Part shown: piece after piece, positions 15,723-55,278 of the stretch
Numbering within the stretch: position 1 is the first letter of the stretch
Layout of the letters: each line of letters begins with the position of its first letter
Assembly (NCBI GenBank): GCA_016223045.1
Contig: JACRPT010000152.1
Location: forward strand, 1 to 61,351
DNA from: Candidatus Eiseniibacteriota bacterium
GTDB lineage: Bacteria; Eisenbacteria; RBG-16-71-46
Length of the DNA stretch: 61,351 bases
Direction of reading: 5' to 3'
The notes under the pieces: generated by a model
The model's database searches: none
What the model was told of the DNA's origin: nothing
What the model saw: only the letters and a program-made list of their open reading frames with translations
Position numbers and translations under genes: made by a program

Positions 15723-16457
15723 ATGCGCCGTCTCCTCCCTGCGCTCGTCATCCTGTCCGGGCTCGCGGCTGCCGTCGGCTGCTCGAAGCACCCGACCCGC
15801 GCAGCGTCGCCGGCAGCCGCGTCGCCGTCCCCCGCGCCGAGTTCCCCGGCCGGCGTCATCCGGCTCTTCGAATGGTCCTGGAACAACCGGGACACGTTGC
15901 GGCCGCGCGAGATCCTCACCGACGACTTCCGCTTCCAGTTCGCGCTCGGCGACTCGGCGGGGAACCAGTTCCGCGACCAGCCCATGGACCGCGAGCGACT
16001 CCTCCTCTGCCTGCGCCACCTGTTCGTGGGTGGCGGCGCGCAACCTCCGGCCTCGAGCATCCGGCTCGTGTTCGATCCCGTCCTGAGCGTCCAGCCCGAT
16101 TCCCGTCCCGGCAGGGACCCGACCTGGCACAAGCAGATTCTCACCGGCGTGGACCTGTCCATCAGGTGGCCGGCCAGCGAGTACCGCGTCACGGGCAACG
16201 CCCGCTTCTTCGTGGTGCGCGGAGACTCGGCGGCGATCCCGGCCGACCTTGTGGCGCGCGGGTTCGGCCCCGACTCGACCCGCTGGTGGATCCAGGCGTG
16301 GTGGGACGAATCGCTCGTCGGGCCCGCGGCCGTGGCCGGGCCGTGGCGGTCGCGTGGCGCGGAAGCCCGCGGCGCCGGCCCCGGCCGGGTGCTCCCGGCC
16401 GTCAACCGGACCTGGGGCGACATCCTGGCCGCCTATCTGGCGTCGGTCGCTCCATAG
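15723..16457 (+). CDS. Predicted lipoprotein of unknown function
   Basis: A 244-residue protein with a lipoprotein signal: a basic start, the hydrophobic core LLPALVILSGLAAA and a lipobox ending AVGC at Cys20. A Pro/Ala/Ser-rich linker follows (residues ~25-45). The mature domain reads like a SnoaL/NTF2-type fold (FEWSWNNRDTLRPREILTDD, later RWWIQAWWDE); this is tentative. Near the C-terminus TWGDILAAYL resembles the TWG tail motif found in other exported proteins here but is followed by five more residues. GAGGAG four bases upstream fixes ATG 15723. Stop TAG. It interrupts the usual trmD-rplS adjacency. Confidence 0.75.
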   Translation: MRRLLPALVILSGLAAAVGCSKHPTRAASPAAASPSPAPSSPAGVIRLFEWSWNNRDTLRPREILTDDFRFQFALGDSAGNQFRDQPMDRERLLLCLRHLFVGGGAQPPASSIRLVFDPVLSVQPDSRPGRDPTWHKQILTGVDLSIRWPASEYRVTGNARFFVVRGDSAAIPADLVARGFGPDSTRWWIQAWWDESLVGPAAVAGPWRSRGAEARGAGPGRVLPAVNRTWGDILAAYLASVAP

Positions 16458-31647: not shown

Positions 31648-31757
31648 GCCTGGCGTCGCGAAGATGATTCTCGACCCCCCGTGCTAAGCCGGTGTACCTT
31701 GCCCACGCCTTCCCATACCTCACGGCTGCCAGGCCGCCCCGCCGCGGAGACATCGCA

Positions 31758-37231: not shown

Positions 37232-37555
37232 CGCTTCGCCTTCCTCGGCTACGATCCCGAGGCCCGTACATGGAAGAGGCCGCACTCGAGCGATCAGGGA
37301 CCAGCCCGGCCGTGGCACCACATGAAGGTCACGGCCGTCGGGAGCTCGTTCCGCTGCTTCTGGGACGACACCGAGCTCACCACCACCCCGATCACGGATG
37401 GCGATCTCGGCTCGGGCTGGGTCGGCGTCTGCAACTTCCGGTTCGATCTCGGCGGCGTGCCGTTCCTGACCGACGACCTGCTGCTCTCGCCCGAGGGCGA
37501 ACCCACCCCCACCATCCCTGCCACCTGGGGAGGTCTGAAGGCTCGGTATCGATGA
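37232..37555 (+). pseudogene. C-terminal fragment of a LamG-like exported protein
   Basis: Open frame without a plausible start: FAFLGYDPEARTWKRPHSSD, then WHHMKVTAVGSSFRCFWDDT and DGDLGSGWVGVCNFRFDLGG, as in concanavalin-A/LamG-like sandwich domains. It ends PATWGGLKARYR followed by TGA, which matches the TWG C-terminal motif of the LTD proteins at 45005 and 45969. It looks like the 3' end of a truncated secreted-protein gene next to the comM fragment. Confidence 0.65.
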
Positions 37556-37614
37556 CGGGTGGAAGTCGAGTACCAGGGCCGTGCCGAGTCACACTTGAGA
37601 GGAGCAAAGGGACG

Positions 37615-37860
37615 ATGCGCCACCACGTGCCCGGTCGACCGGTGTTGCTCGTCATGCTGGTGGTGACGCTCGTTGGGTCCGCTTCGCCCCCGGCCGGGCG
37701 GGATGCGGTGCCGGCCCACTTCGGCGACGGGATGGACCGGATCGGTCGACACTTCCCGCTCGACATCGTCGAGCAGGGCGACTCGACCCTGACGGCGGTC
37801 GCCTGCCTCGCGGCGGACTTGCCGCCGTCCGTTCTGGAGGTGGCCGCGGAATCCGGCTGA
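37615..37860 (+). CDS. Short exported ORF of unknown function, possibly truncated
   Basis: An 81-residue ORF from ATG 37615 with a signal-like start (VLLVMLVVTLVGSASPPAG) and no known domain. GAGAGGAG lies about ten bases upstream. The same frame runs on past the TGA at 37858-37860 without another stop through the duplicated FIST fragment to 38379, so this may be the 5' part of a chimeric, decaying gene. Confidence 0.4.
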   Translation: MRHHVPGRPVLLVMLVVTLVGSASPPAGRDAVPAHFGDGMDRIGRHFPLDIVEQGDSTLTAVACLAADLPPSVLEVAAESG

Positions 37861-37970
37861 GCCGCCGCCGCCGCGCTGCCAGCCGACCCTCCAGCGCTGC
37901 CCATGGCGCCCATCGGCTCCTCCGGGAACATGGTCCCCGGCGACAGCATCCAGCCCAAGCCCGCGCGCAC

Positions 37971-38379
37971 GGGCGCCGAGGGGCGCGGCGACTGGCTGAT
38001 CCGCAACCTGCTCGGCGCCGACCGCGACCGCGGCGTGCTGGCGGTGGGCGACCACGTGCAGGCGGGCGAGAAGCTCCGGCTCCACGTGCGCGACGCCGGG
38101 ACCGCGCGCGAGGACCTGGAGATGCTGCTCTCGCCGCAGGCGTTCGACACGCGCGCGGAGGCTGCGCTGCTGTTCTGCTGCAACGGGCGCGGACAGAGGC
38201 TCTACGGCGCGCCGGACGGCGACATCGCGCCGCTCCAGGCGGCGCTCGGCGGCCACGTCCCCGCGGCCGGGATGTTCTGCGCCGGCGAGATCGGCCCGGT
38301 GGGCGAGCGCAACCTGCTCCACGGCCACACGGCGAGCATCGCAGTGGTGCGGGGGAAGCAGACGGGACAGGACGGCTAG
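37971..38379 (+). pseudogene. Duplicated FIST_C fragment (copy 2 of the 388-bp repeat)
   Basis: Positions 37971-38358 align without gaps to 30655-31042 of the intact FIST gene at about 95% identity. The fragment keeps the reading frame (GDWLIRNLLGADRDRGVLAV, LLFCCNGRGQRLYGAPDGD, GMFCAGEIGPVGERN) and ends with its own TAG at 38377. It lacks the N-domain and two thirds of the gene. Differences are mostly synonymous, so either the copy arose from a diverged paralogue or it stayed under selection for some time. Confidence 0.8.
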
Positions 38380-38654
38380 CGTCCGCAGCCCGCGCCAGCT
38401 GCGTGGCACGGCGGCCCCAACCGCGAAGCCCCGGCGCGTCGGCGCCGAGGGGCGGACACTCAAGGAGGTCGGACACGCGCAGTCCGTCGCGCGCGGTGCG
38501 ACCGACGGACCGCGCGCGTGTACGCCCAAAGGAGCATCGGCGCGCCGCGCTCTCCGGCGCCGGCGCGCGTGCCTCCGCGGCCCGCTGTGGTGTAGTATCC
38601 GCCGGTTTGGACGAGCACCTCCCCTGGGCACGAACCACTTCGAGAGAAACCCCC

Positions 38655-39848
38655 ATGAGCACGTATCCCGACGTCTTCATCGTGGGCGCGGCGCGCACGC
38701 CCATCGGCAAGTTCCTCGGCGGCCTCGCCCCGCTCAAGGCCGCGGACCTCGGCGCCATCGCGATCCGGGAGGCGATGAAGCGCGCCGGCGTCGGTGGCGA
38801 CGAGGTGGACGAGGTGCTGATGGGCCACGTGGTGTAGGGCGGCCAGGGCCAGGCGCCGGCGCGGCAGACCCACATCAAGGCCGGCATCAGCCCGGTGGCC
38901 GGCGCGGTCACGGTCAACAAGGTGTGCGGCTCGGGCCTCAAGGCCGTGATGCTGGCCGCGCAGGCCATCAAGGCCGGCGACGCCCACTGCATCGTGGCGG
39001 GCGGGCAGGAGAGCATGAGCACGGTCCCGCACTACCTGTTCACCGGTCGTACCGGGCAGAAACTCGGTGATGCCACGCTCAAGGATGGCGTGGTGTTCGA
39101 CGGCCTGTGGTGCTCGTTCAACGACTGCCACATGATCGACCTGGCCCAGTACACCGCGGAGAAGGCAGGCCTGAAGCGCGAGGAGCTGGACGTGTTCTCG
39201 GCCGAGAGTCACCAGAAGGCGGCCGCCGCGTGGGCCGCGGGCAAGTTCGCCAGGGAGATCGCCGTGGTCACCATCCCGCAGCGGAAGGGTGACCCGGTCG
39301 TCATCGGCAAGGACGAGTCGGTGCGGCCCGACACCACGGCCGAGGCGCTGGCGAAGCTCCCGGCGGTGACGCGCGAGAAGGGCGGCATGATCACCGCGGG
39401 GAACGCCCCGGGCCTCAATGACGGCGGCGCGGCGCTGGTGGTCATGAGCGGTGAGCGCGTGAAGCAGAAGGGCGCGAAGCCGCTGGCGCGCGTGGTGGCC
39501 TACGCCACCGGCGGCGGCGAGCCGAAGGAACTGTTCTTCGCGCCGGTGGACGCGGTGCAGAAGCTGATGAAGAAGATGGACGTCAGGATCGGCCACTTCG
39601 ACCTGATCGAGGCCAACGAGGCGTTCGCCGCGCAGGCGCTCGCCGACGGCCGGGCGCTCGGCTGGGACTGGGGCCGCGTCAACGTCAACGGCGGCGCGGT
39701 GGCGCTCGGGCACCCGATCGGCGCCTCCGGCGCGCGCGTGCTGACGACGCTGCTCTACGCCCTCGAGGACCGTGGACTGAGGACCGGCCTGGCCACGCTC
39801 TGCCTGGGCGGCGGGAACGCGGTGGCGCTGGCCGTGGAACGCGTGTGA
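38655..39848 (+). pseudogene. Acetyl-CoA acetyltransferase (thiolase) interrupted by one in-frame TAG
   Basis: The whole 397-codon frame encodes a thiolase. It starts DVFIVGAARTPIGKFLGGLA, has the nucleophile region VNKVCGSGLKAVMLAAQAI (Cys near codon 92), the catalytic His in [14 protein letters not shown] and the second Cys in LCLGGGNAVAL. Codon 61 (38835-38837) is TAG in MGHVV[*]GGQGQAPARQ, where thiolases have a conserved Gln; CAG to TAG is one transition. All catalytic residues lie after it. A TAGTAT -10-like element is at 38593-38598. The gene heads the beta-oxidation cluster. Confidence 0.85.
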
Positions 39849-39926
39849 CGTGAGGCGGCGGAGCCGCGGGGGCGCGGTGCCCGCAGTCGGCGCGCCCGGC
39901 TCCCGCGATGCCGCGGAGGGAAGACC

Positions 39927-40832
39927 ATGAGCACCGTGACCGAAGCAGTGGCGAGCGGCCCGTCGGCCGCCGTGAAGAAGATCGCCGTCGTGGGCGGCGG
40001 CACCATGGGGAACGGCATCGCGCAGGTGTTCGCGAGCAGCGGCTTCGACGTGCAGCTGGTGGACCAGCGCCAGGAGTTCGTGGACCGCGCGCTCGGCACC
40101 ATCGGCAGGAACCTGGAGCGCGTGGCGAAGAAGCTGAACTGGGAGTCCGACCGCGTCCAGGCGATCCTGCAGCGCGTCCGCGGCGGGGTGAGCCTCGAGG
40201 CGGCGCGCGACTGCCAGCTGGTGATCGAGGCGGTGAACGAGGACCTGGCGGTCAAGCGCCGGATCTTCGAGCAGCTCGACGCGCTGGCGCCGGCGGGCGC
40301 GGTGCTCGCCAGCAACACCTCGAGCATCTCGATCACCGAGCTCGCCGCGATCACGAAGCGTCCCGACCGGGTCATCGGCATGCACTTCATGAACCCGGTG
40401 CCGGTGATGCAGCTGGTCGAGCTGATCCGCGGGCTCGCCACCAGCGACGCGACCTATCGTCTGACGGAGGACCTCGCGAAGCGGCTGGGCAAGACGCCGG
40501 TCGAGGTCAACGACTATCCCGGCTTCGTCTCGAACCGCATCCTGATGCCGATGATCAACGAGGCGTGCTACGCGCTCATGGAAGGCGTGGCGAGCCGCGA
40601 CGCCATCGACACGGTGATGAAGCTCGGGATGAACCATCCCATGGGGCCCCTCGCGCTAGCTGATCTCATCGGGCTCGACACCTGCCTCAGCATCATGGAA
40701 GTGCTGCACGAGGGGCTCGGCGACTCGAAGTACCGTCCCTGCCCGCTGCTGCGCAAGATGGTCAAGGCGGGCTACCTGGGGCGCAAGAGCGGACGCGGAT
40801 TCTACGACTACACGGAGGCCGCGAAGGCATGA
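39927..40832 (+). CDS. hbd: 3-hydroxyacyl-CoA (3-hydroxybutyryl-CoA) dehydrogenase
   Basis: A 301-residue enzyme oxidising 3-hydroxyacyl-CoA with NAD. The Rossmann motif is [19 protein letters not shown] near residue 18. [14 protein letters not shown] and the catalytic His in [18 protein letters not shown] follow, and the C-terminal domain has [19 protein letters not shown] and [22 protein letters not shown] five bases upstream fixes ATG 39927. It overlaps the next acyl-CoA dehydrogenase by ATGA and acts between that enzyme and the thiolase in beta-oxidation or butanoate metabolism. Confidence 0.95.
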
Positions 40833-42019
40833 CCCCCGGGACCCTCGCGCCGGCCACCGGCCCGTCGTTCGATCTTGGCGAGGACCAGCTCGCGGTGCGC
40901 GAGATGGTGCGCGAGTTCGCCGAGAGCGAGATCCGCCCCATCGCCGCGGCGATCGACGAGAGCCACGAGTTCCCGATGGAGACGACGAGGAAGATGGCCG
41001 GGCTGGGCCTGCTCGGCATGTTCGTGCCGGAGGAGTACGGCGGCGCGGGCATGGACTACCTGTCTTACGTCATCGCCGTCGAGGAGCTGTCGCGCGTGTG
41101 CGCCACGCACGGCGTGATCGCGTCGGTCAACAACTCGCTGGTGTGCTACCCGCTGCTGACCTACGGCAACGAGGAGCAGAAGCGCGAGTACCTGGTGCCG
41201 ATCGCGAAGGGCGAGAAGCTCGGCTGCTACTGCCTGACCGAGCCGAACGCCGGCAGCAACGCGGCCAACCAGCAGACCACCGCGGTCGAGGACGGCGACG
41301 CCTTCGTCCTCAACGGCACCAAGGTGTTCATCACCACCGCCGGGCCGGCGGACGTGCTGATCCTCTACGCGGCCACCGACCGGTCGAAGGGGCCGAAGGG
41401 CATCACCGCCTTCATCGTGGACGCCGACACGCCCGGGGTGAACAAGGGGAAGAAGGAGAAGAAGCTCGGCATCCGCGCCTCCGACACGCGCGAGATCGCG
41501 CTGGTGAACGCGCGGGTGCCGAAGGCCAACGTGCTGGGCGAGCGGGACAAGGGCTACACCGTCGCGCTCGCCACGCTGGGCGGCGGCCGCATCGGCATCG
41601 CCGCGCAGGCGCTGGGGATCGCGCAGGCGTCGCTCGAGGCGGCGGTGCGCTACGCCGGCGAGCGCGTGCAGTTCGACCGCATCATCGGCGAGTTCGACGC
41701 CATCCGCGAGATGCTGGCGAACGCCGCCATCGAGGTCGAGACCGCGCGGCTGCTGGTCTACCAGTCGGCCTGGCTGCGCGACCGGGGCCGCCCGCACACC
41801 AAGGAGGCCTCGCTCGCCAAGTGGCACGCGGCGGAGGCGGCCTCGAAGTGCGCGAACTGGGCCATCCAGGTGCACGGCGGCTACGGCTACATGGCCGAGT
41901 ACCTGGTCGAGCGCTACCTGCGTGACGCGAAGATCTGCGAGATCTACGAAGGCACCACCGAGGTGCAGAAGATGGTGGTGGCCGCCCAGGTCCTGAAGGA
42001 GCGCGCGCTCGCCGGCTGA
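40829..42019 (+). CDS. Acyl-CoA dehydrogenase (short/branched-chain type)
   Basis: A 396-residue acyl-CoA dehydrogenase: [75 protein letters not shown] and the catalytic Glu in [12 protein letters not shown]. It is intact. At the position of the TAG in its paralogue at 42440 it has His ([13 protein letters not shown]). ATG 40829 overlaps hbd, so it is the third gene of the operon after the thiolase. Confidence 0.95.
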
Positions 42020-42048
42020 GCGCGGCCAGTCATCCACCGAGGAGCATC

Positions 42049-42432
42049 ATGACCCGTCCCGTCCGGCCCGTCGCCCTCGTGATCCTCACGCTGTGCATGA
42101 TCTATCCCGGCGTGACCCTGCTGTTCCAGGGGCTCTATCCGTTCGTCGCCGGCGAGAGCTTCATGCTCTCCGGGCAGCTCGGTCCCTGGGTGACGCTGGG
42201 GCAGAAGCTCGGGATCCCGCCGGTGGTGGCGCCGCTGCTCAAGACCGCGCTCGGCCTGCTGTGGGTGCTGGGCGTGCCCGGCCTGTGGGCCGGCGACCGC
42301 CGCGCCTGGCCGCTGGTGCTGCTCGCAGCCGCGGGCTCGGTCCTCTACCCGTGGGGCCCGTCGGCGATGGGGATCATCGCGCTCGTGTGCCTCCTTGGCT
42401 TCCGCGAAGACCCCGACCGGGTGCTTGCCTGA
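42049..42432 (+). CDS. Small membrane protein of unknown function
   Basis: A 127-residue protein with four predicted helices (VALVILTLCMIYPGVTLLFQ; a second near 60-75; LVLLAAAGSVLYPW; AMGIIALVCLLGF). GAGGAG upstream supports ATG 42049. It is embedded between two acyl-CoA dehydrogenase genes in the same orientation and so is probably co-expressed with beta-oxidation. No known family was recognised. Confidence 0.7.
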   Translation: MTRPVRPVALVILTLCMIYPGVTLLFQGLYPFVAGESFMLSGQLGPWVTLGQKLGIPPVVAPLLKTALGLLWVLGVPGLWAGDRRAWPLVLLAAAGSVLYPWGPSAMGIIALVCLLGFREDPDRVLA

Positions 42433-42439
42433 GAAACCC

Positions 42440-43591
42440 ATGAACCTCGACCTCACCGAAGACCAGGTCCAGATCCGCGACGCGGTGCGCGAGCTGTGCG
42501 GGCGCGAGTTCGGCGCCGCGGCCGCCAGCTGGGACCGCGAGCAGGTGGTGCCACGCTCGGCGATCGCCACGCTCGCCGAGCAGGGCTTCCTCGGCATGGC
42601 GATCCCCGAGGAGTGGGGCGGCGTGGGCTACGACTCGCGCACCATCACGGTGGTGCTCGAGGAGATCTCGCGCGTCTCGGCGGCGCTCGGCATCATGATC
42701 GCCGTGCACAACTCGGTGGGCGCGCTCCCGGTGTTCCGCTTCGGCACCGACGAGCAGCGCAAGCGCTTCCTGCCGCGCCTGGTGTCGAAGGAGCTGGGCG
42801 CGTTCTGCCTCTCCGAGCCGGCCTGCGGCTCGGACGCGGCGGCGCTCACCTCCACCGCGGTGCGCGACGGCGACCGCTACGTCCTGAACGGCGCCAAGAA
42901 CTGGGTGACCAACGGCGAGCAGGCCGGGGTCTACCTGGTGTTCGCGCGCACCACGAAGGACGGCGGCGCGAAGGGGATCTCCGCGTTCATCGTGGAGCGC
43001 GGCACGCCCGGGCTGGTGCTCGGCAAGCCCGAGGACAAGATGGGCCTGCGCGGCTCCGAGACCGTGGGGCTGACGCTCGAGGACCTGAAGGTCCCGGTGG
43101 AGCAGCGGCTGGGCGCCGAGGGCGAGGGCTTCAGCATCGCCATGAGCATGCTGGACGCGGGCCGCGTCGGCGTCGCCGCGCAGGCGCTCGGGGTGATGCG
43201 CGCGGCGTTCGAGGAGGCGGTGAAGTACGCGCAGCAGCGCCAGGCCTTCGGCGGGCCGATCGCGAAGATCCAGGCCATCCAGTTCAAGCTCGCCGAGATG
43301 GAGCGGCGCATCCAGAGCGCACGGCTGCTCACGCAGAAGGCGGCGTGGCTCAAGGACACCGATCAGCCCTAGACGCGCGAGGCCTCGATGGCCAAGCTCT
43401 ACGCCAGCGAGGCCGCGACCTGGGTGACCCACCAGGCCATCCAGGTGCACGGCGGCTACGGCTACGTGAAGGAGTATGCGGTCGAGCGCTACTACCGCGA
43501 CGCGCGCGTGATGGAGATCTATGAGGGCACCAGCGAGATCCAGCGGCTGGTGATCGCGCGCTCGCTGCTCAAGGACGGCGTGAAGCTGTGA
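42440..43591 (+). pseudogene. Acyl-CoA dehydrogenase interrupted by one in-frame TAG
   Basis: A 383-codon frame of a complete acyl-CoA dehydrogenase: LDLTEDQVQIRDAVRELCG, EEWGGVGYDSRTITVVLEEI, FCLSEPACGSDAAALTS, KNWVTNGEQAGVYLVFA, then TDQP[*][34 protein letters not shown] and [17 protein letters not shown] is codon 311 (43370-43372); the aligned residue is Tyr in the 28616 paralogue and His in the 40829 paralogue, so TAC to TAG is the simplest change. The truncated product would lack the catalytic Glu of IYEGTSE. No other lesion is seen. Confidence 0.85.
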
Positions 43592-43765
43592 GCGGATGAC
43601 CGCCGCGCCTGCGTCCCTGCGTGGCGCGCGTTCAGAGTCCCGGCCCGGCGGCCGATGACGTGCTGAGTGACGCGCCGGGTCCTGCGGCGCGCGGCGCCCT
43701 CTGCTAGAATCCTCCGCGCCGCGGGACGCCCGGCCGCCTCATCCCACGACCACCCGGAGATCCCG

Positions 43766-44887
43766 ATGTCGAAAGTCGCCGTCCTGCGCACCACGCCCGA
43801 GACCGTCGTCGAGGACTACGGCCGCCTGATGGACCTGGCGGGCTACCGCGAAGCCCTGCCCTTCAGCGCCCAGACCTGTCTCAGGATCAACATCTCCTGG
43901 CACGTCTACATGCCGGCCTGCTCGACCACGCCGTGGCAGATGCACGGCGTCATCGAGAAGATGAAGCGCGACGGCGTCGACGTCTCGCGCGACCTGATCG
44001 CCGCGCAGAACGACACCGTGGTGGTGAGCTGCCGCGAAGGCGCGGTCAACAACCACCTGCAGCCGGTGCTCGACCGCTACCGGGTGCCGATCCAGTACCT
44101 GAGCGAGCCGCCGACCGAGTGGGTGCGCTACGAGCCGAAGGCGAAGCTGCTGGTGCTGGACCGGGTGTTCGAGAAGCAGGGCATCCAGATCCCGAAGCTG
44201 CTGCTGGGGAAGAACGTCATCCACATGCCGACCGTGAAGACCCACGTCTTCACCGGCACCACCGGCTCGATGAAGAACGCCTTCGGCGGGCTCTTGAACC
44301 TGAACCGCCACTGGACCCACTCGGTGATCCACGAGACGCTCGTGGACCTGCTGCGCATCCAGAAGGAGATCCATCCCGGCATCTTCGCGGTGATGGACGG
44401 CACCATCGCCGGCGCGGGGCCCGGGCCGCGCGCGATGCGGCCGCACGTCAAGAACTACATCCTGGCCTCCAGCGACTGCGTGGCCATCGACGCCATCGCG
44501 GCGAAGATGATGGGCTTCGATCCCATGACCGACCTCAAGTTCATCCGCCTGGCGCACGAGCACGGGCTCGGCGTCGGCCGCCCCGAGGAGATCGAGATCG
44601 TGGGTGACGACATCCGCGGCGTGAACTTCGGCTTCCGCGGCTCGCTCCAGGAGAACACCTTCGCCTCGTGGGGGCAGAAGCTCATCTACTGGGGGCCGCT
44701 GAAGCCGCTCGAGAACATCCTGCTGCGCTCGCCCATCGTGCCGTGGAGCTACGCGGCGTCGCGCGCCTACCACGACGGTTACTGGTACCCGGTGAAGGGC
44801 CGCCCGCGCGTGCGCGACATCATGAAGACCGGCTGGGGCGGTCTGTTCCGCGCCTACGGCGACGGGCGGGCGCTGCACGAGGCGTAG
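43766..44887 (+). CDS. DUF362 family protein
   Basis: A 373-residue DUF362 protein: an N-terminal VAVLRTTPETVVEDYGRLM, the diagnostic VIHMPTVKTHVFTGTTGSMK, NAFGGLLNLNRHWTH and VMDGTIAGAGPGPRAMRPHV. It lacks the C-terminal ferredoxin module that some members carry. The biochemical role of the family is not settled; redox or Fe-S functions are suggested. GGAG six bases upstream supports ATG 43766, and TAGAAT at 43705-43710 is a possible -10. Stop TAG. It may be a separate transcript after the acyl-CoA dehydrogenases. Confidence 0.88.
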   Translation: MSKVAVLRTTPETVVEDYGRLMDLAGYREALPFSAQTCLRINISWHVYMPACSTTPWQMHGVIEKMKRDGVDVSRDLIAAQNDTVVVSCREGAVNNHLQPVLDRYRVPIQYLSEPPTEWVRYEPKAKLLVLDRVFEKQGIQIPKLLLGKNVIHMPTVKTHVFTGTTGSMKNAFGGLLNLNRHWTHSVIHETLVDLLRIQKEIHPGIFAVMDGTIAGAGPGPRAMRPHVKNYILASSDCVAIDAIAAKMMGFDPMTDLKFIRLAHEHGLGVGRPEEIEIVGDDIRGVNFGFRGSLQENTFASWGQKLIYWGPLKPLENILLRSPIVPWSYAASRAYHDGYWYPVKGRPRVRDIMKTGWGGLFRAYGDGRALHEA

Positions 44888-44919
44888 CGGCCCGCTCCCT
44901 CCGCGGACCACGAAGCGTC

Positions 44920-44947
44920 GAGGCCGGGCTCGCTCGAGCCCGGCCTC
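44920..44947. terminator. Bidirectional hairpin terminator between convergent genes
   Basis: Perfect 11-bp stem GAGGCCGGGCT / AGCCCGGCCTC (44920-44930 with 44937-44947) and a 6-base loop, in the 117-bp gap between the DUF362 gene (+) and the LTD gene (-). No T-run follows on either strand, so it may need Rho or act as an intrinsic GC-type terminator. Confidence 0.65.
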
Positions 44948-45004
44948 TCGACACGGCCGTCGCCTCGCCCCAGCGGGGGCAGGACCCCGCCGGTCGCACG
45001 GGTC

Positions 45005-45646
45005 CTACCGGTAGAGCAGCTTCAGCTCTCCCCAGGTCCTGCCCCGCGCCGGCGTCGTGGTGTGGCAGGTGGACGCGGCATCCTGCGGGTCGCTCGGTGA
45101 GATGAGCTGGAAGTCCGTGGCGTTGTCGTCGGTGTCCTGTCCGCTCCCGAGACTGCCGCCCGGCTTGCGCTCGTAGCCCTGGTCCACGTTCGTGGTGAGC
45201 GGCGCCAGCAGCGTGCCCTCCCCGTACGCCGAGCCCGGGCTCATCCCGGCGGCGTCCATGACGATGGTGCCGTTCTGCACCGAGACGCCGCCGTCGTCGG
45301 GGATGCTGCCGGTGGTGAACCACTGGTCGGGCGCCACCGATCCCGAGTAGCCGTTGGGGTTCGCGAACAGGTAGCGGCAGCCCGGGAACACCACGATGCC
45401 GCCGGTCACCATCCCCAGCTCGACCGTGTTCCCCGCGTTGTCCGAGGCGTGGACGGTCCAGCCGCCGATCAGGAAGGGACTGGTGGACACGTTGTACAGC
45501 TCGATGAACTCGTCGTCCGCTCCATTGGGCCCGCGCGTGCGGAACTCGCCGATGACGAGCGTGGTCGAGGTCGCGAAGGCGGTGGCGAAGGATCCCAGCA
45601 CGGCAAGCAGCGCGAGCGGGGACACGAGGCGGGTGGCAAGGCGCAT
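45005..45646 (-). CDS. Secreted lamin-tail-domain (LTD) protein with TWG C-terminal motif
   Basis: A 213-residue protein with a signal peptide (LVSPLALLAVLGSFATAFA) and one LTD beta-sandwich: LVIGEFRTRGPNGADDEFIE near residue 29, LYNVSTSPFLIGGWTV, then PDDGGVSVQNGTIV. LTD domains occur in exported nucleases and cell-surface proteins; no catalytic domain is present here. The last residues are GRTWGELKLLYR at the very C-terminus, shared with the neighbour at 45969. GGGAG before ATG 45646 supports the start; the frame is open further upstream. Stop TAG. Confidence 0.85.
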   Translation of the reverse strand: MRLATRLVSPLALLAVLGSFATAFATSTTLVIGEFRTRGPNGADDEFIELYNVSTSPFLIGGWTVHASDNAGNTVELGMVTGGIVVFPGCRYLFANPNGYSGSVAPDQWFTTGSIPDDGGVSVQNGTIVMDAAGMSPGSAYGEGTLLAPLTTNVDQGYERKPGGSLGSGQDTDDNATDFQLISPSDPQDAASTCHTTTPARGRTWGELKLLYR

Positions 45647-45783
45647 GGGAGACTCCCGGTGGAACGGCTCCCCCTGCGGGTCGGGCTGTGGGGGAGCCCT
45701 GGGTGGATGGGGGATCCGGAGCGACCGGACCGGGACGAAAGCTGCGGCGAGGATAACGCGCCGGGGCGCGCGGACGCGACAGC

Positions 45784-45837
45784 GAAATGCGACGCGGGAG
45801 AATGCGACACACGGAAATGCGACGCGGGAGAATGCGA
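45784..45837. repeat. Two 24-bp direct repeats with 30-bp period
   Basis: The sequence GAAATGCGACGCGGGAGAAT followed by GCGA occurs at 45784-45807 and again at 45814-45837, exact over 24 bp. It lies in the 322-bp gap between the two LTD genes, upstream of the downstream one, and so within its promoter region. No gene is supported in this gap. Confidence 0.85.
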
Positions 45838-45850
45838 GGGAAAGGCGCAC

Positions 45851-45874
45851 GGAAGTCGCGCGCTCGCGACTTCC
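45851..45874. terminator. Perfect hairpin between the two LTD genes
   Basis: GGAAGTCGCG (45851-45860), loop CGCT and CGCGACTTCC (45865-45874) form a perfect 10-bp stem. Lying 95 bp after the end of the LTD gene at 45969 on the minus strand, it could terminate that transcript; alternatively it is a protein-binding palindrome for the next gene. No T-run. Confidence 0.5.
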
Positions 45875-45968
45875 GGGTCCGCTGCTGCCGGGCCCCGCCC
45901 GGGAGCGCAGACGCGGCTACCACCCCTGCGAACCGGGGTGATCACCGCAGGCCAGCTCCCACTCCACG

Positions 45969-46616
45969 TCAGCGGTACAGGATCTTCACCCGGCCCCAGG
46001 TCTCGCCGGTCGCGGGCGTGGCCGCGACGCAGATCGAGGCACGATTCTGCGGGTTGCTCGGTGAAACCACGAAGAAGTCCGAGGCGTTGTCGTCGAGGTC
46101 CTGTCCGTTTCCCCCGATGCCGCCCGGCAGGCGCTCGTAGCTCCGGTTCGTGTTGGTGGTGAGCGGCGCGAGCACCGTGCCTTCCTTGTAGGCCGACCCC
46201 ACGCTCATCCCGACCTGGTCCACGACGACCGAGACCGTATTGAGCAGTGCGATCCCGCCGTCGTCGGTGATCCCGGTGGTGTAGGTCTGGTCGGGCGACA
46301 CGCCACCCGAATAGCCGCTCGGGCTGTTGTTGGCGAGCAGGTAGTGGCAGCCGGGGTTGAGGAAGGTGTTCGCCGGGATGGTGGCCCGCGTCGCGATGGA
46401 ACCGCTGCTGTTGGAGCCGTTGACCCTCCAGCTGCCGAGGTTCACGGCGGCGCCCGACAGGTTGTAGATCTCGATGAACTCGTCGCTCGCCCCGTTCGGG
46501 CCACGGGTGCGGAACTCGCCGATCACGATGTTCGGGGAGGCGGCGGCCGCGGGGGCCGCGGGCACCAGCAGCGCGAACAGCGCCGGCAGGAGGATGAGGG
46601 GGGAAGCAGGGCGCAT
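45969..46616 (-). CDS. Secreted lamin-tail-domain (LTD) protein with TWG C-terminal motif (paralogue)
   Basis: A 215-residue paralogue of the protein at 45005: signal peptide LILLPALFALLVPAAPAAAA, LTD core IVIGEFRTRGPNGASDEFIE, SWRVNGSNSSGSIATRA, APLTTNTNRSYERLPGG, and the C-terminal tail GETWGRVKILYR with nothing after it. GGAGGAA five bases upstream supports ATG 46616. A TAGGAT element on the minus strand at about 46724-46729 may be its -10. The pair arose by tandem duplication and has since diverged in the loop regions. Stop TGA. Confidence 0.85.
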   Translation of the reverse strand: MRPASPLILLPALFALLVPAAPAAAASPNIVIGEFRTRGPNGASDEFIEIYNLSGAAVNLGSWRVNGSNSSGSIATRATIPANTFLNPGCHYLLANNSPSGYSGGVSPDQTYTTGITDDGGIALLNTVSVVVDQVGMSVGSAYKEGTVLAPLTTNTNRSYERLPGGIGGNGQDLDDNASDFFVVSPSNPQNRASICVAATPATGETWGRVKILYR

Positions 46617-46777
46617 GCGCGTTCCTCCGCGATGAGGGCGCTCGCGCCTGGGAAGCACGTCCCGGGAGCCCGGTGTCTCGGGGCTGCCGGGGGGAGGACG
46701 AGCGTCCGTTCGACGGCCTCTATCCTAGCGCTGCGGGGCGCGCGCCGCGATGGAAGATTGCGAAACCCGGGGAATGC

Positions 46778-47268
46778 CTAGGGTTCGGGCGCCTGGCTCA
46801 GCTCCACCAGCACCCCGCCCAGGCTCTTCGGGTGGAGGAAGGCCACCTGCGTGCCGTGGGCGCCCGCGCGCGGGGTCTCGTCCACCAGGCGCAGGCCGGC
46901 GTCGCGGCAGCGGGCGAGCGCGGCCGCGAGGTCCGCCACCTCGAGGCTCACGTGGTGGAGCCCGGGGCCGCGCGACGCCAGGAACCTGGCCACGGTGTGC
47001 TCGGGCGAGCGCGGCTCGAGCAGCTCGAAGGTGACGGGCCCGAGATGGACGAACAGCACGCGCAGCGCGCCGCCGTCGAGCAGCTCCTCGGCGCCGCGTG
47101 TGGCGCCGAGCCCGGCGACGAACGCGGCGGCCAGGGAATCGGCGTCTTCGACGGCGATCGCGACGTGCGAGAGGCCCCGCACCGGGCCGGACCCTTCGCG
47201 CGACCCGCCTACCGTCACGCGCCCCTCGGCTGGGCCGCCGCCCGCCGGACGATCCGCCGGCTCGCCGC

Positions 47269-47272
<4 letters not shown>
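46778..47272 (-). CDS. mce: Methylmalonyl-CoA epimerase
   Basis: A 164-residue VOC-fold protein with a ~30-residue Gly-rich N-terminal extension. Core: [57 protein letters not shown] and [17 protein letters not shown]. His and Glu metal ligands (HVAI, HHVSLEV, VELSQ) are present. It interconverts (2R)- and (2S)-methylmalonyl-CoA. The ATG overlaps the mutase stop (ATGA), and it is the last gene of the acpS-accC-accB-mcmA-mce operon. Stop TAG. Confidence 0.93.
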
Positions 47273-48977
<1,705 letters not shown>

Positions 48978-48981
<4 letters not shown>

Positions 48982-49493
48982 GGCTGCTCCGGACGGATCT
49001 TCAGCAGCGGCTGGCCGGCCGCGACCGTGGCGCGCTCCTCGACCAGCACGTCGCTCACCACGCCGCCCTCGCGCGCCACCAGTTCGTTCTGCATCTTCAT
49101 CGCCTCCACCACCGCCACCGCCTGCCCGGGCCTGACCGTCTCGCCGGGGCGCACGCGCAGCGCCACCACCAGGCCGGGCATCGGCGCGACGATGGTCTCG
49201 CCCGCGGGTTTGCCGCGCGCGCGCTGTACCGCCTGCAGCGCCTTCTCGAGCGGGTGGCGGGCCTCCACCGGGAAGGTGACGCCGCCGTAGGTGACCTCCA
49301 AGTGCTCGCCGGCGGGCGAGACGCGCACCTCGTGCGAGCGGCCGTTCACCAGCAGCGAGTAGACCTCGCCGTCGGGGAGCCGGCGGAAGTCGGCCTCGAG
49401 CCGCCGGCCCTCCACGTCGAGCCACAGCCGGCCGGCCTCGGCGTGCAGCTCGACCTCGGCCTCGCGGCCCTCGAGCGTGACCCAGAACCTCAT
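48978..49493 (-). CDS. Biotin carboxyl carrier protein of an acyl-CoA carboxylase
   Basis: A 171-residue protein whose C-terminal 75 residues form a biotinyl domain: [20 protein letters not shown] and [13 protein letters not shown], with the biotinylated Lys in AMKM. The N-terminal part ([20 protein letters not shown]) resembles the linker or BT domain of propionyl-CoA carboxylase alpha chains. It carries CO2 from the biotin carboxylase to the carboxyltransferase. ATGA overlaps at both ends. The carboxyltransferase beta subunit is not in the window. Confidence 0.93.
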
Positions 49494-51004
49494 CGCTTCC
49501 CCTGCGGCGCGCGGCGCCGCCGCTCCGCCCAGCGCCACGGCGAGCGCGCGCCGTCGCCGCTGCCGGGCAGCGCTACGCGCAGCCGGTCCTCGCGCGCGTG
49601 GAGCGCGGCGGCGAGCAGGGCGACCTCGGCGGCCGCCGCGTCGGGGCCGAGCAGGGTGGGATCGAAGTGCTCCTCGATGAAGCGGGTCGAGAGGTTCCCG
49701 GCCACGAACTCGGGATGCGCGACCAGCCAGCGGTGGAACGACAGGTTCGTGTGCACGCCCTCGATCACGAACTCGCGCAGCGCGCGCGCCAGCCGCCGCC
49801 GCGCCTGCTCACGGTCGGGGCCGTGCACCACGAGCTTGCCGAGCAGCGAATCGTAGAAGATCGGAACCTCGTAGCCGCGGTAGAAGCCGGCGTCGTTGCG
49901 CACGCCGGGGCCCTGCGGGAAGCGGACGCGCTCGATGCGGCCGACCGAGGGCATGAAGCCGGCGAGCGGGTCCTCGGCCACGATGCGCGCCTCCATCGCC
50001 CAGCCGCGCGGCGCGGGCGGCGTGTCGCCGAACGAGAGCGGCGCGCCCTCGGCGATGCGCACCTGCTCGGCCACCAGGTCGAGCCCGGTCACCATCTCGG
50101 TCACCGGGTGCTCCACCTGGAGCCGGGTGTTGACCTCGAGGAAGTAGAACGCGCCGCTCTCGTCGAGGATGAACTCGACGGTGCCGGCGTTCAGGTAGCC
50201 GACCTGCTTCGCCACCCGCACCGCGGCCTCGGCGAAGCGCGCGCGCGTGGCGTCGTCGAAGGCCGGCGACGGGGTCTCCTCGAGCAGCTTCTGGTGGCGG
50301 CGCTGCACCGAGCATTCGCGCTCGCCCAGGCACGCCACGCGTCCGCTCGCGTCGGCCAGGATCTGCGCCTCGACGTGGCGCGGGCGTTCGATGAAGCGCT
50401 CGATGTAGACGCGGTCGTCGCCGAAGGCCGCGAGCGATTCACCGCGCGTGAGCGACCACGCCGACTCCAGCCCGGCGTCGTCGCGCACCACGCGCATGCC
50501 CTTGCCGCCACCGCCGGCCGCGGCCTTGAGCATGAGCGGGTAGCCGACCTGCTTCGCCACGTCCCTGGCCTGGTCGAGCGTGGCGGGCGGCGTCACCGAG
50601 CCCGGCACCATCGGCACGCCGGCCGCGCGCGCCGCGGCGCGCGCCGCCAGCTTGTCGCCCAGCCCGGCGAGCGTCGCGGGCCGCGGGCCGATGAAGGTGA
50701 TGCCGGCATCCTCGCAGGCCTGCGCGAACGCGGCGTTCTCGGCGAAGAAGCCGTAGCCGGGGTGGATGGCGTCGGCCCCGACGCGCACGGCGGTCGCCAG
50801 CACGCGCTCGAGGTTCAGGTAGCTCTCGCGCGAGGGGCCCGGCCCGATGGGGTAGGCCTCGTCGGCCATGATCACGTGGTAGGCGACGCGGTCGGGCTCG
50901 CTGAACACCGCGATCGAGGTGATGTCCAGCTCGCGCAGGGTGCGGATGACGCGCACCGCGATCTCGCCGCGGTTCGCGATCAGGACGCGGCGGATGGGAC
51001 GCAT
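49490..51004 (-). CDS. Biotin carboxylase subunit of an acyl-CoA carboxylase
   Basis: A 504-residue ATP-grasp biotin carboxylase. The N-terminus is [30 protein letters not shown], the ATP-binding [15 protein letters not shown] loop near 165, [16 protein letters not shown], and the active-site [20 protein letters not shown] near 285 follow. In context (mutase and epimerase downstream) it most likely belongs to propionyl-CoA carboxylase. Start ATG 51004 shares one base with the acpS stop (TGATG). Confidence 0.95.
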
Positions 51005-51384
51005 CAGCCCTCGATCACCACGCAGGCGATGGCGAGCCCGCCGTCGTGCGTGAGGGAGACGTGGGCCGAGCGGCCGCCGAGCGACTCAAAGCGCTCGCGC
51101 GCCGTGCCGTGGAACTCGAGCCGCGGCTGGCGGCCGCCCGGCTGGATCACCTCGAACTGCCTGAAGCCCACGCCGCCGCTCATGCCGGTGCCGAGCGCCT
51201 TGGAGGCCGCCTCCTTGGCCGCGAAGCGCGCCGCCAGGTGGGGCAGGGGGTCTTTGTGCGTGCGGCAGTAGGCCAGCTCGGCCTCGGTGAACAGGCGCCT
51301 CTCCATGCGCTCGCCGAAGCGCTCGAGCGCCTCGACCAGCCGCTCGACCCTGATGACATCCACGCCGATCCCGCGGACGGGCAC
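51004..51384 (-). CDS. acpS: Holo-[acyl-carrier-protein] synthase
   Basis: A 126-residue 4'-phosphopantetheinyl transferase that activates acyl carrier protein. It has the metal-binding RGIGVDVIRVERLVEAL at the start, LAARFAAKEAASKALGTGM (F-A-A-K-E-A) near residue 52, and SLTHDGGLAIACVVIE at the end. The start is GTG 51384 with GGAGGA just upstream. It is the first gene of the propionate operon, a typical neighbour in high-GC bacteria. Confidence 0.95.
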   Translation of the reverse strand: MPVRGIGVDVIRVERLVEALERFGERMERRLFTEAELAYCRTHKDPLPHLAARFAAKEAASKALGTGMSGGVGFRQFEVIQPGGRQPRLEFHGTARERFESLGGRSAHVSLTHDGGLAIACVVIEG

Positions 51385-52311
51385 CGGTCCTCCGAACTCG
51401 GGACGAAGGGGAGACTCGTGGCTGGCAATCTAGAGAGCGGCCACCCCGGAATCAAGCGGGCCCGGCGCACCGGAAGCCGCCTGCGGCGGGGTCCCCGCGG
51501 CGCAGCGGCGAATCAGCTCCCGCACATCCAGTACCATCAGGCTCCTTCCTGCCGGGGGCACTCTTCTCTGGTTGAGTGAGAACCACCCAGAGAACGTAGG
51601 TGCTCCACTGGCGGGAAGGACCACCGCGTGCCGTCGGTCGTCTCCGCCCCCGGCCGTTCGCTGCCCCGGGTCTGTTCCGGTTCCGGGAGACGTCTCCGGT
51701 TGGCTCCCGGTCGCGCGAGAACCTTGCCCACCTACCGGGCGAAAGCGGGTGGCAACCCATCGGGCGAAGACCCCGGTTCCCTGCCCGCGAAGTCCCTGGC
51801 TACCTATGCGCCGACGGGTGACACATCCGCGCTTTCCGGAGGCCAGCGATGGATGAAGAGAAGGCGCGCGAGGGGAGCGGGCCGGACCCATCGGGGGCGC
51901 TGTCGACCACGGTCACGTCGTAGCAGTCCGTGGAGGCGGGTCCCGGGACCCCTCGCGGGGGAGTACCTACCGCCGCCCGCGGGGAAGCGGAATGCTCTCA
52001 TCTCACTCATCTCCCACGTCCCCTCTTCCTCCGGGTAGCCTAACGGACCATAGCCGCTGCTGGGGCCAAGGCGTCCACTGCATCTGTCACCGGCATCGTG
52101 GCAATCCGCTGGGATGTCGCATGTCAGGCCGCATGTTTGATACGGGTGTTCTTTCGCCGCACGCTCCCACCCGCGCGGCGATTCGTCGGCTACGCCTTGG
52201 GGCAACGATTGAAAGCCCGCAGTCCAGGTTCGCCGCAGGCGCTCCGGGCCTTGCATCGGATTGTGCAGTGCACTCCGGCGCGCAGGGAAGCGCCCGACAA
52301 GGAGGCCGAGC
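51385..52311. other. 927-bp intergenic region without a supported gene
   Basis: It separates the divergent acpS operon and the exported protein at 52312. I see a GAGACGTCTC palindrome in the Pro-type GC sequence near 51688 and two CGGGCGAA boxes around 51737 and 51764. A short minus-strand stretch at 51540-51470 (VLDVRELIRRCAAGTPPQA) could be the start of an IS21-type transposase, but too little is left to call it. Both promoters presumably lie here, but no convincing -35/-10 pair stands out. Confidence 0.5.
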
Positions 52312-53061
52312 ATGAGAATCCCCCTCGCGTTGATGGTTCTTCTGGTCGGAACGGTAGTCCCGGCGGCGGGAGCGACGGCCGCCGGCGTCAACTTCTCCTG
52401 GGACGCCTGCGCTTCAGAAGGCGGTGTCCAGAGCAAGACCTTCGCCTGCAACACGAATGCTGGTTCCCGGGCGGCGTGGGGCTCGTTCATCGTCGCAGCC
52501 GCCCAGGACAGCTTCGTCGGCGTCGAGATCATCGTCGCTGTGCAGGCCCAGAGCGACACGCTGCCCGACTGGTGGCAGTTCTTCAACTCCGGGGCCTGTC
52601 GCCAGACCGCGCTCTCGACCTCCTTCGACTTCACCTCCGCTCCCGGGGCCTCGTGCACCGATCCCTGGTTCGGGCAGGCGGCCGGTGGCTTGGCCGCATA
52701 TCACACGATCAACACCGTGCCGCCGGTGCCGAGCGGCCTGCCGAACGCCGCGCGGATCAAGATCGGTGCGGCCGTGCCGAGCACGAGCCCGCTCACTCTC
52801 GCGGCGGGGACCGAGTACTACTGCTTCAGGCTGATCCTCACGAACGCCAAGACGGCCGGCAGCGGGGCATGCAGCGGCTGCGACATCCCGGTCTGTCTGA
52901 CCCTCTCCGAGATCAAGGTGGCGCAACTGAACGGCGCGGTCGAGGACCTGACCCAGCCGATCTCGCAGAACGTCGTCTACTGGCAGTCCAGCGGGGGGAG
53001 CTGCGGGGCGACCGCGCCGCAGAACGTCATCTGGGGGCAGATCCGGAGCATTCTCCGGTGA
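52312..53061 (+). CDS. Exported protein of unknown function with TWG-type C-terminus
   Basis: A 249-residue protein with a signal peptide (IPLALMVLLVGTVVPAAGAT). The mature part is Cys-containing and beta-rich (WDACASEGGVQSKTFACNTN, YYCFRLILTNAKTAGSGACS), resembling other short FCB exported proteins of unknown role. It ends QNVIWGQIRSILR directly before TGA, a variant of the TWGxxKxLYR tail. AAGGAGG six bases upstream makes ATG 52312 certain. It is followed after 78 bp by another exported protein. Confidence 0.8.
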   Translation: MRIPLALMVLLVGTVVPAAGATAAGVNFSWDACASEGGVQSKTFACNTNAGSRAAWGSFIVAAAQDSFVGVEIIVAVQAQSDTLPDWWQFFNSGACRQTALSTSFDFTSAPGASCTDPWFGQAAGGLAAYHTINTVPPVPSGLPNAARIKIGAAVPSTSPLTLAAGTEYYCFRLILTNAKTAGSGACSGCDIPVCLTLSEIKVAQLNGAVEDLTQPISQNVVYWQSSGGSCGATAPQNVIWGQIRSILR

Positions 53062-53139
53062 CGGCCGGGGCCCTCAACCATGATCCTGCAGCGCACGTGC
53101 CCACGAGAAGTCGGTCCTACTCGTCACAGGAGGCCGTTC

Positions 53140-55278
53140 ATGCGCCGCATCTGCTGGCTGCTCGCCCTCATGATCGCGTTGATCCCCAGCGCATCTCAGG
53201 CCATCCAGCTCCGCTGGAGCTCAGGTGGCACGTCTCTCAGCTTCACCTCTGCGACACGATGCACTCTGGTTGTTGAGGCCGACTCTGCTGAACAAACCCT
53301 GTCCCGGGAATGGCGGCTGCTGTGGGCCGCAGACAGCAGCTCGATCCAGCCACTGGCCCTTGGTGCGGAGCTGGCCTGCCAGGAGGCCATCGCCCAGGTC
53401 TCTGGAATTGACCTCCCCACGACCCGCGCCGACAGTGCCGCCAATCTGACCACCGCGCACTTTTGCGTGGCTGGCAGCAGCGCCCCCTCCGGGGCACAGT
53501 ACGTCCTCGACCTGCCGGTCGGGACCAGGGGCAAGCTCAAAGTCGTGGCCCTCGACCCGAACGACCCCGACTCCAGCCGCGTCATCGAGTCGAACGAGGT
53601 GACGTACAATGGAGGCCTCGCAGGCAGCTACCCGCCGGTCGTCCTTCACGCTTCGAGCGTTCACCAGTCGCTCCAACTCCGGGTCACGGCGGTCGGCTCC
53701 GGTCTGAGCACGGCAAGTTCGATGAGCATCGTGGCTCTGGATTCCTCCTGGACCCTGCCGCTCACCGTCACGGCGCGGAGCGACGGGTCGCTCATGGGCG
53801 CCGCTTCTGTTGCAGCCCTCCTGCCGGCCAGCCAGGCAAGCGTCGGGTCGGAGAGTGGCGCAGTGTCGGCGGCCTCTCTTGCGGCGGACGAGGAGCCTGG
53901 GTCGCTCAGTCCGCAAGGATGCCAGGGGCAGTTCAATGAGGAGCTACTCCTGCCTCCGCCGCCCCTGCACGGCTACACGATTCAGCCGAAGGACTTCGCC
54001 TTCACCCGGGGCTTCGTGGACCAGTCCAGCAATCGGTTCGCGCTGCACCTGTTCTACATCCGCCACAACTACTGGTACTACCCGCCGCCGCCCGCGATTC
54101 AGCATCCGGAACTCGACGAGAAGAACCTCGGCCACATCTGGACGACCGACTTCAACTCCTGGTACGGACCCGGCGGACTGAACAAGCCCGACACCGTCGC
54201 GCTCACTGTCCGGTCGGGCAAGTTCGATGAGTTCCACGTGTGGGCGCCAACGATCGTCCAGCGGGGCCCGACGTTCTGGATGTTCTACACGGGTGTCAGG
54301 GACGAAGGTGGGCGCCGGAACCAGCGCATCGGGGTGGCGACCTCGACCGACCTCAACACGTGGACGCCCAACGACAATCCGGTGCTGACCGCGCCGGACG
54401 TCCCATGGGCCAGGAAGAACCCGACGGCCTACGACGGCCAGCAGCTCCGGGATCCCTTCGTCATGGAGGATCCGGTCAACTCCGGCCAGTGGCTCATGTA
54501 CTTTGTCTCGGTAGACTCGCTGACGGGGAGCAAGATGGCGGTCGGTGTGGCAAGGTCCCTTGGCGATTTCGCCACGTGGGCGGCCGCCCCCGATTCTCTG
54601 GGCAGCACGCAGAAGCCCACCTTCCAAGGCACGACGACCATCGTCGAATCGCCGCACGTCTTCCGGCGTCACGGGCAGTGGTGGATGCCGTACACGGTTG
54701 GCGGCGACCAGGTGTTCTTCGAGACCACCGCCAGCGCCGACCCGACGGACGCGACGACCGAGCATTGGACCGATCCGATCTGGCTGCGGGGCGTCGCGGA
54801 GGGGCAACCGACGGAGCTTCAGTACTGGCATGCGAGCGAGTACCTCCGGATCAATTCGACCGAGTACCTGGCCGCCTTCAACGACAACGCGAGCTCGATC
54901 GACATCAAGGGCATGTTCGCGCCTGCGAACGCGGCGGTGGACAGCTTCCTGCTCTATTGCCCGCCGATCGCCGGCGTCGCCGACCGGGATGGCTCCGGCA
55001 ACGGAGTGCGCATGGCGATCTCGCGCCTGCGGTGGGGCGCCCCCGAAGTGGGCCTGCGGCTCGAGCTGCCTTCGCGGATGCCGGTGCGGCTCGCCGTCTA
55101 CGACATCGCGGGACGCCGACGTTCGACACTCCTCGATCGAGAGCTGCCGGGTGGCGTAACCGAGGTGACGTGGGACGGGCGCGACGACAGCGGCGTGCGG
55201 GTGGCGAGCGGGATGTACTTCATCCGACTCACCTACACGAGGGGCGCCCGGGTCTCCAGGCTCGTGATGCTCCGGTAG
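53140..55278 (+). CDS. Exported beta-propeller (GH43/32-like) protein with FlgD-like C-terminal domain
   Basis: A 712-residue protein with a signal peptide (WLLALMIALIPSASQA). Residues ~20-260 are a beta/Ser-rich region. About 290-620 look like a five-bladed glycosidase propeller: FHVWAPTIVQRGPTFWMFYT, IGVATSTDLNTWTPNDNPVL, RDPFVMEDPVNSGQWLMYFV and ESPHVFRRHGQWWMPYT, the blade pattern of GH43/GH32/GH130. The C-terminus (VRLAVYDIAGRRRSTLLDRE, ASGMYFIRL) is a FlgD-like secretion or anchoring domain. AGGAGG six bases upstream fixes ATG 53140. Stop TAG. A polysaccharide-degrading or binding role is likely but substrate is unknown. Confidence 0.85.
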   Translation: MRRICWLLALMIALIPSASQAIQLRWSSGGTSLSFTSATRCTLVVEADSAEQTLSREWRLLWAADSSSIQPLALGAELACQEAIAQVSGIDLPTTRADSAANLTTAHFCVAGSSAPSGAQYVLDLPVGTRGKLKVVALDPNDPDSSRVIESNEVTYNGGLAGSYPPVVLHASSVHQSLQLRVTAVGSGLSTASSMSIVALDSSWTLPLTVTARSDGSLMGAASVAALLPASQASVGSESGAVSAASLAADEEPGSLSPQGCQGQFNEELLLPPPPLHGYTIQPKDFAFTRGFVDQSSNRFALHLFYIRHNYWYYPPPPAIQHPELDEKNLGHIWTTDFNSWYGPGGLNKPDTVALTVRSGKFDEFHVWAPTIVQRGPTFWMFYTGVRDEGGRRNQRIGVATSTDLNTWTPNDNPVLTAPDVPWARKNPTAYDGQQLRDPFVMEDPVNSGQWLMYFVSVDSLTGSKMAVGVARSLGDFATWAAAPDSLGSTQKPTFQGTTTIVESPHVFRRHGQWWMPYTVGGDQVFFETTASADPTDATTEHWTDPIWLRGVAEGQPTELQYWHASEYLRINSTEYLAAFNDNASSIDIKGMFAPANAAVDSFLLYCPPIAGVADRDGSGNGVRMAISRLRWGAPEVGLRLELPSRMPVRLAVYDIAGRRRSTLLDRELPGGVTEVTWDGRDDSGVRVASGMYFIRLTYTRGARVSRLVMLR

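Follow-up and report, generated by a model that had tools for sequence, protein, structure and literature searches.

We analyzed a 61,351-nucleotide stretch of DNA (the window; contig JACRPT010000152.1 of assembly GCA_016223045.1, Candidatus Eiseniibacteriota bacterium) in which several exported proteins end in a common short motif, hereafter the WG tail. The window lies in a genome of 3.88 Mb (G000), whose contigs are given as C numbers. An earlier note on this DNA had placed four such C-termini, and all four are present in the sequence:

45005 to 45646, minus strand: exported protein with a lamin-tail domain (LTD), end GRTWGELKLLYR (open reading frame and translation, PF00932 match; stop 45005-45007, start 45646)
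45008 to 45034, minus strand: its WG tail, WGELKLLYR (pattern match including the stop, G000:C146:45005-45034)
45969 to 46616, minus strand: second LTD exported protein, end GETWGRVKILYR (translation, PF00932; stop 45969-45971, start 46616)
45972 to 45998, minus strand: its WG tail, WGRVKILYR (pattern match)
52312 to 53061, plus strand: beta-rich exported protein, end NVIWGQIRSILR (stop 53059-53061; alignment with relatives, AlphaFold model)
53032 to 53058, plus strand: its WG tail, WGQIRSILR, an IR..LR variant (pattern match)
37232 to 37555, plus strand: LamG-like gene remnant, end PATWGGLKARYR (three-frame reading; stop 37553-37555)
37526 to 37552, plus strand: its WG tail, WGGLKARYR (pattern match)

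The three complete proteins, starting at 45646, 46616 and 52312, have signal-peptide-like N-termini, as the note had said. Its description of four carriers with different domains holds for the tails but not for their independence: the two LTD proteins are paralogues with 55% identity, which leaves three independent cases. Because the LamG-like piece has no in-frame start or signal peptide and the other frames hold no continuation upon three-frame reading, we regard it as a remnant. The protein at 52312 belongs to a family with at least nine relatives, every one of which has a WG tail in the alignment. A lipoprotein at 15723, which had been offered as a near match, was rejected as a member, since its end (TWGDILAAYL-ASVAP) lacks the near-invariant K and R.

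The WG tail recurs throughout the genome and is confined almost entirely to the C-terminus. Searching the DNA for W-G-x-[hydrophobic]-[KR]-x-x-x-R-stop, with the same pattern reversed as a control, we obtained 37 matches (36 of them at a true stop codon), whereas the control gave 2, which puts the motif far above chance. About 36 genes of the genome end in [ST]-W-G-x-[ILV]-K-x-x-[YFL]-R-stop, and upon reading the genes behind the matches we found a Pro/Thr-rich linker preceding the tail in unrelated exported proteins. Across 197 distinct tail proteins, the consensus was [TSV]-P-[VT]-E-x-[TS]-[TS]-W-G-x-I-K-x-L-Y-R, with S or T preceding W in 187 and P at -6 in 110, both at positions outside the search pattern. 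For counts at the level of the phylum we used a stricter pattern, W-G-x-[h]-K-x-x-[FY]-R-stop, which occurred in 44 of the 47 genomes of the window's phylum (672 matches, up to 41 per genome; none reversed). Dropping the stop requirement raised the matches to 804 and the reversed control to 9, and 18 of the 20 extra matches that were read lay within 9 residues of the C-terminus. The proposed strict C-terminal location therefore proved near-strict: as 0 to 9 residues are tolerated after R, the tail sits at the C-terminus without Arg having to supply the terminal carboxylate. DNA information was close to zero directly 3' of the stop codon and the synonymous sites of Gly and Arg within the tail varied freely, indicating that selection acts on the peptide; all three stop codons occurred after tails, and 168 of 169 30-mers were distinct. 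At two places in the assembly (G000:C70:20670-20699 and G000:C75:33663-33692) contigs end 3 bases past identical tails of near-identical paralogues, which are assembly breaks at recent duplicates.

The bodies of the tail proteins are largely unrelated and overwhelmingly exported. The 197 bodies fell into 73 BLAST clusters, 55 of them singletons, so that domain homology, which would have explained the shared ends, was not borne out. Using home-made heuristics for gene calling and for signal peptides, the latter applied alike to tail and background genes, we found a signal peptide in 83 of 92 tail proteins (90%) compared to 131 of 565 (23%) other genes of the same loci (P ~7e-36), in line with the enrichment that had been anticipated. 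A lipobox was found in 9 of 153, showing that lipoproteins with a full tail exist. The domains matched in Pfam and NCBIfam include LTD, NHL, CHRD, LamG-like, beta-helix and PKD, among others, and there are matches to choice_anch_V, choice_anch_J, ScyF (a PEP-CTERM family) and MXAN_6652 (a MYXO-CTERM family). As these host families are named for other anchors, the WG tail occupies the slot where relatives elsewhere bear different sorting tags. LTD proteins of the window's genome have one of two ends, a WG tail (C142, C146 twice, C81) or a FlgD/type IX-like domain (C70, C81), and the same choice is seen in NHL proteins. No NCBIfam or Pfam model matched the tail itself and our literature searches returned no paper naming or describing the motif, which agrees with its having been placed outside the known C-terminal sorting tags.

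Dozens of exported proteins that are otherwise unrelated bear the tail, in Eisenbacteria, in Krumholzibacteriota and, more sparsely, in Poribacteria. We scanned one genome for each of ~85,000 bacterial and archaeal species (the pattern is GC-biased, and low-GC phyla are not excluded) and obtained at least 112 stretches, most of them in records under the titles Candidatus Eisenbacteria, Krumholzibacteriia/-ota or unnamed bacterium, while a few among the matches listed belonged to Effluviviaceae, Latescibacterota, Gemmatimonadota, UBP1 and Poribacteria metagenome-assembled genomes (MAGs). The genomes behind these loci hold up to 64 tails each. A match in Omnitrophota was set aside as chance, as it lies within a 15-residue frame. 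In Krumholzibacteriota, the phylum of a Krumholzibacteriia MAG, the tail occurred in 76 of 78 sampled genomes, many with only 1-3, and in Poribacteria 21 of 59 genomes had 1-3 tails (control 2). Among 12 loci taken from these Poribacteria (L236-L247), ten have ends of the type KLSTTWGSLKSKFR, almost always on LamG-like or other secreted domains; the remaining two are chance matches in very short frames. Tandem relatives in Krumholzibacteriota retain [ST]WGxIK with a relaxed end, which makes the strict tail counts lower bounds. In three tandem arrays of small secreted paralogues (L214:8796-11553, L231:4753-6431 and L232:8873-11038), only one copy has the full ...YR end and the others read WGAIKSMMD, WGAIKSMME, WGAIKNMYE or WGAIKGLFE. 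One Eisenbacteria family, f11 (G038-G046), has nearly lost the tail: each genome holds a few copies at most, chiefly on choice_anch_V-like CxxCH proteins and a single-copy LTD protein, and its member G038 has zero tails although it is 97% complete. MAG completeness limits such claims of absence.

Structure prediction was informative for one carrier. In an AlphaFold model of the protein at 52312 (ten sequences, mean pLDDT, the predicted local distance difference test score, of 65), the last 18 residues (232-249) had a pLDDT below 50 and no secondary structure, placing the tail outside the predicted fold in this one model. A fold search with this protein gave weak beta-sandwich matches only, and the model of the LTD protein (mean pLDDT 44.8) was too poor for use. 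Judging by its spacing, the motif could also form a short helix of amphipathic character, one face carrying W, I and Y and another K and R.

Two further exported proteins of the window carry a different kind of C-terminus:

31692 to 35840, plus strand: large NHL-type exported protein with a FlgD-like (type IX type A-like) C-terminal domain (PF13860 35598-35798; ScyF/NHL match)
53080 to 55278, plus strand: exported protein with a weak arabinosidase-like match and a FlgD-like C-terminal domain (PF13860 55045-55245)

The former, upstream of the LamG-like remnant, is of the other class of C-terminal signal; the latter, encoded directly downstream of the 52312 gene, also gave weak PorZ/PorU C-terminal-domain matches. 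With 98 FlgD-like domain matches against ~36 WG tails in this one genome, the suggestion that two classes of C-terminal signal coexist was upheld. Median frame length is 290 residues for WG-tail frames and 762 for FlgD-like frames. A FlgD domain occurs no more than 2 kb away from 10 of the 36 tails, against an expectation of 3.5, and among the immediate neighbours of tail genes (n = 117, Pfam scan) FlgD_ig was commonest (15) and Por_Secre_tail second (8). FlgD_ig matched only 1 of 84 tail proteins scanned. One protein, at L174:1310-1762, has both a FlgD-like domain and, directly following it, a WG tail (LGTWGRMKELFR).

SprA, the translocon expected of genomes with type IX substrates, accompanies the tail in most of its genomes. 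In the window's phylum, 39 of the 47 genomes gave a SprA_N match (25 of the 26 good ones), as did 66 of 78 Krumholzibacteriota; weak SprA_N-like matches, mostly in frames of 2,000-2,300 residues, occurred in 54 of 59 Poribacteria (G047 and 58 others), and none of 14 control genomes had SprA_N. This association is not specific, as the tail-free G038 has SprA too. We also looked for a partner gene by gene calling and all-against-all comparison around the low-copy tail genes of family f11, in 20 Krumholzibacteriota loci (mostly with low tail counts) and in the 112 loci of the scan, and by Pfam for the 117 neighbours. The only recurrent features were local synteny, tandem tail paralogues, TPR proteins and FlgD/Por_Secre_tail proteins, and the dedicated peptidase or transporter that had been expected to co-occur with the tail was not found adjoining tail genes in these loci.

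We suggest that the WG tail is a previously undescribed, very short C-terminal sorting signal that is read after Sec export, most probably in connection with the type IX system, a reading to which we assign a probability of roughly 0.6. It builds on what is directly seen, namely the motif and its position, the exported nature of its carriers, the way it alternates with other tags and the presence of SprA in most carrier genomes, from which we infer recognition, route and destination. Tail proteins would cross the inner membrane via Sec by their N-terminal signal peptide. The peptide [ST]-W-G-x-I-K-x-L-Y-R, either disordered or as a short amphipathic helix, would then be displayed by a flexible linker of the consensus [TS]-P-[VT]-E-x-[TS]. 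A receptor in the periplasm or the outer membrane may read the tail, upon which the protein would be moved through the outer membrane or placed on it. We hold the type IX system to be the likeliest machine; besides the FlgD-like/type A domains of ~80 residues it would accept the tail as another class of signal, favoured by small proteins (~290 amino acids). That the tail serves as a sorting or targeting tag is, on the sequence evidence, highly probable, while the use of the type IX route by its carriers is an even call: the SprA and FlgD context fits this route, without proving it.

Several observations weigh against coupling to type IX. Clustering with FlgD-domain genes may only mirror islands of exported proteins. 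SprA is present in the tail-free G038 and throughout the low-tail family f11, so that SprA alone does not predict the tail, and a presence/absence logic fails because SprA does not separate tail-rich from tail-poor genomes. Conversely, no SprA_N match was obtained in 12 tail-bearing Krumholzibacteriota MAGs of unknown completeness, with tail counts including 29, 14 and 10. No dedicated gene was found beside the tail genes in f11, the 20 Krumholzibacteriota loci, the 112 scan loci or among the 117 neighbours. Lastly, the tail has no motif in common with the type IX domains, the shortest of which so far described (PMC11969387) still exceeds it greatly in length.

Some of these points would suit a separate, undescribed machine (a receptor, protease or transferase) that reads the tail for release, anchoring or modification independently of type IX. 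Tail and enzyme would then form a new pair comparable to GlyGly-CTERM/rhombosortase or PEP-CTERM/exosortase, without a membrane helix, in Eisenbacteria, Krumholzibacteriota and Poribacteria. It would accommodate the dissimilarity to type IX domains, the tail-rich genomes lacking a SprA match and the tail lipoproteins, whose existing membrane anchor implies a role of the tail beyond simple anchoring; as no family recurs next to low-copy tail genes and nearly all good genomes have SprA, we consider it rather unlikely. Alternatively, the tail might localize proteins exported by another route without driving export, as a docking peptide that binds a surface or periplasmic scaffold by a dockerin-like logic. 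An exposed, unfolded or short-helical tail behind a linker and domains of typically adhesive or surface types (LTD, NHL, CHRD, LamG, beta-helix) would be in keeping with docking, which we nonetheless deem improbable, given that no scaffold candidate was identified and that such a scaffold would need to be shared across three phyla.

Tail-specific proteases typically take C-terminal tails as ligands, and the WG tail might by analogy be a quality-control signal for such a periplasmic protease or for a chaperone rather than one of destination. The tolerance of up to 9 residues past R speaks against a strict reading of the carboxylate, a conserved degron on dozens of unrelated proteins would be unexpected, and the substitution for other anchors would be left unexplained, which makes this quite improbable. 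Common ancestry, a mobile DNA repeat over 3' ends, or chance could account for some tandem paralogues and for the paralogous LTD genes of the window, but these explanations are contradicted by the number of clusters, the distinct 30-mers, the loss of DNA information past the stop and the near-zero reversed-pattern controls, and we give them next to no weight.

C-terminal tags are the entry to several export and anchoring systems, such as those of PEP-CTERM, GlyGly-CTERM, MYXO-CTERM and the type IX domains. If the proposed function is true, the WG tail, with its 10 residues and no membrane helix, would rank with the shortest signals of this type that have been proposed, and it would serve dozens of proteins per genome across at least three phyla, none of which has a model organism. 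Secretomes of the carrier phyla could then be predicted, and whether the type IX system recognizes a linear peptide could be tested directly. For Poribacteria, type IX-type domains have been reported without the structural genes (PMC3909097), a reported lack on which the SprA-like frames found here bear.

Among known systems, the type A C-terminal domain (TIGR04183/PF18962, FlgD-like, including the short form of Prevotella intermedia) comes close in behaviour: it too sits on unrelated Sec-exported proteins in dozens of copies, and the WG tail is also exchangeable between domain families in genomes that have SprA. Type A domains are beta-sandwiches of ~70-100 residues (signals of ~100 residues, compared to 150-235 for type B; PMC12618676), and the shortest type IX signals described, of 40-55 residues, form a three-stranded sheet with motifs B, D (GxY) and E (PMC11969387, PMC12618676). 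The WG tail, of ~10-16 residues with a core of 9-10 in the logo, is no folded domain of at least 40 residues and has none of these motifs, and TIGR04183 is absent from the families listed for 84 tail proteins; what its carriers do share with type A substrates is the N-terminal Sec signal peptide, as called by our heuristic predictor. Like type B (TIGR04131), it coexists with type A in one genome as a second class of signal, but type B signals often lie beside a PorP/SprF-like gene (PMC12618676), whereas the tail is tiny and has no recurring neighbour. With PEP-CTERM, GlyGly-CTERM and MYXO-CTERM it shares a short C-terminal homology on diverse exported proteins, and the host families ScyF, MXAN_6652 and choice_anch. 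Those tags combine a signature with a membrane helix and a basic cluster, while in the last 25 residues of ~200 tail proteins we read a linker and WGxIKxxYR with no hydrophobic stretch. Taken broadly, a sorting tag of the CTERM kind is a short homology at the C-termini of many unrelated proteins with signal peptides, in a many-to-one relation, and the WG tail fits this description. Although it belongs to no described tag family, in its behaviour it resembles a sorting tag.
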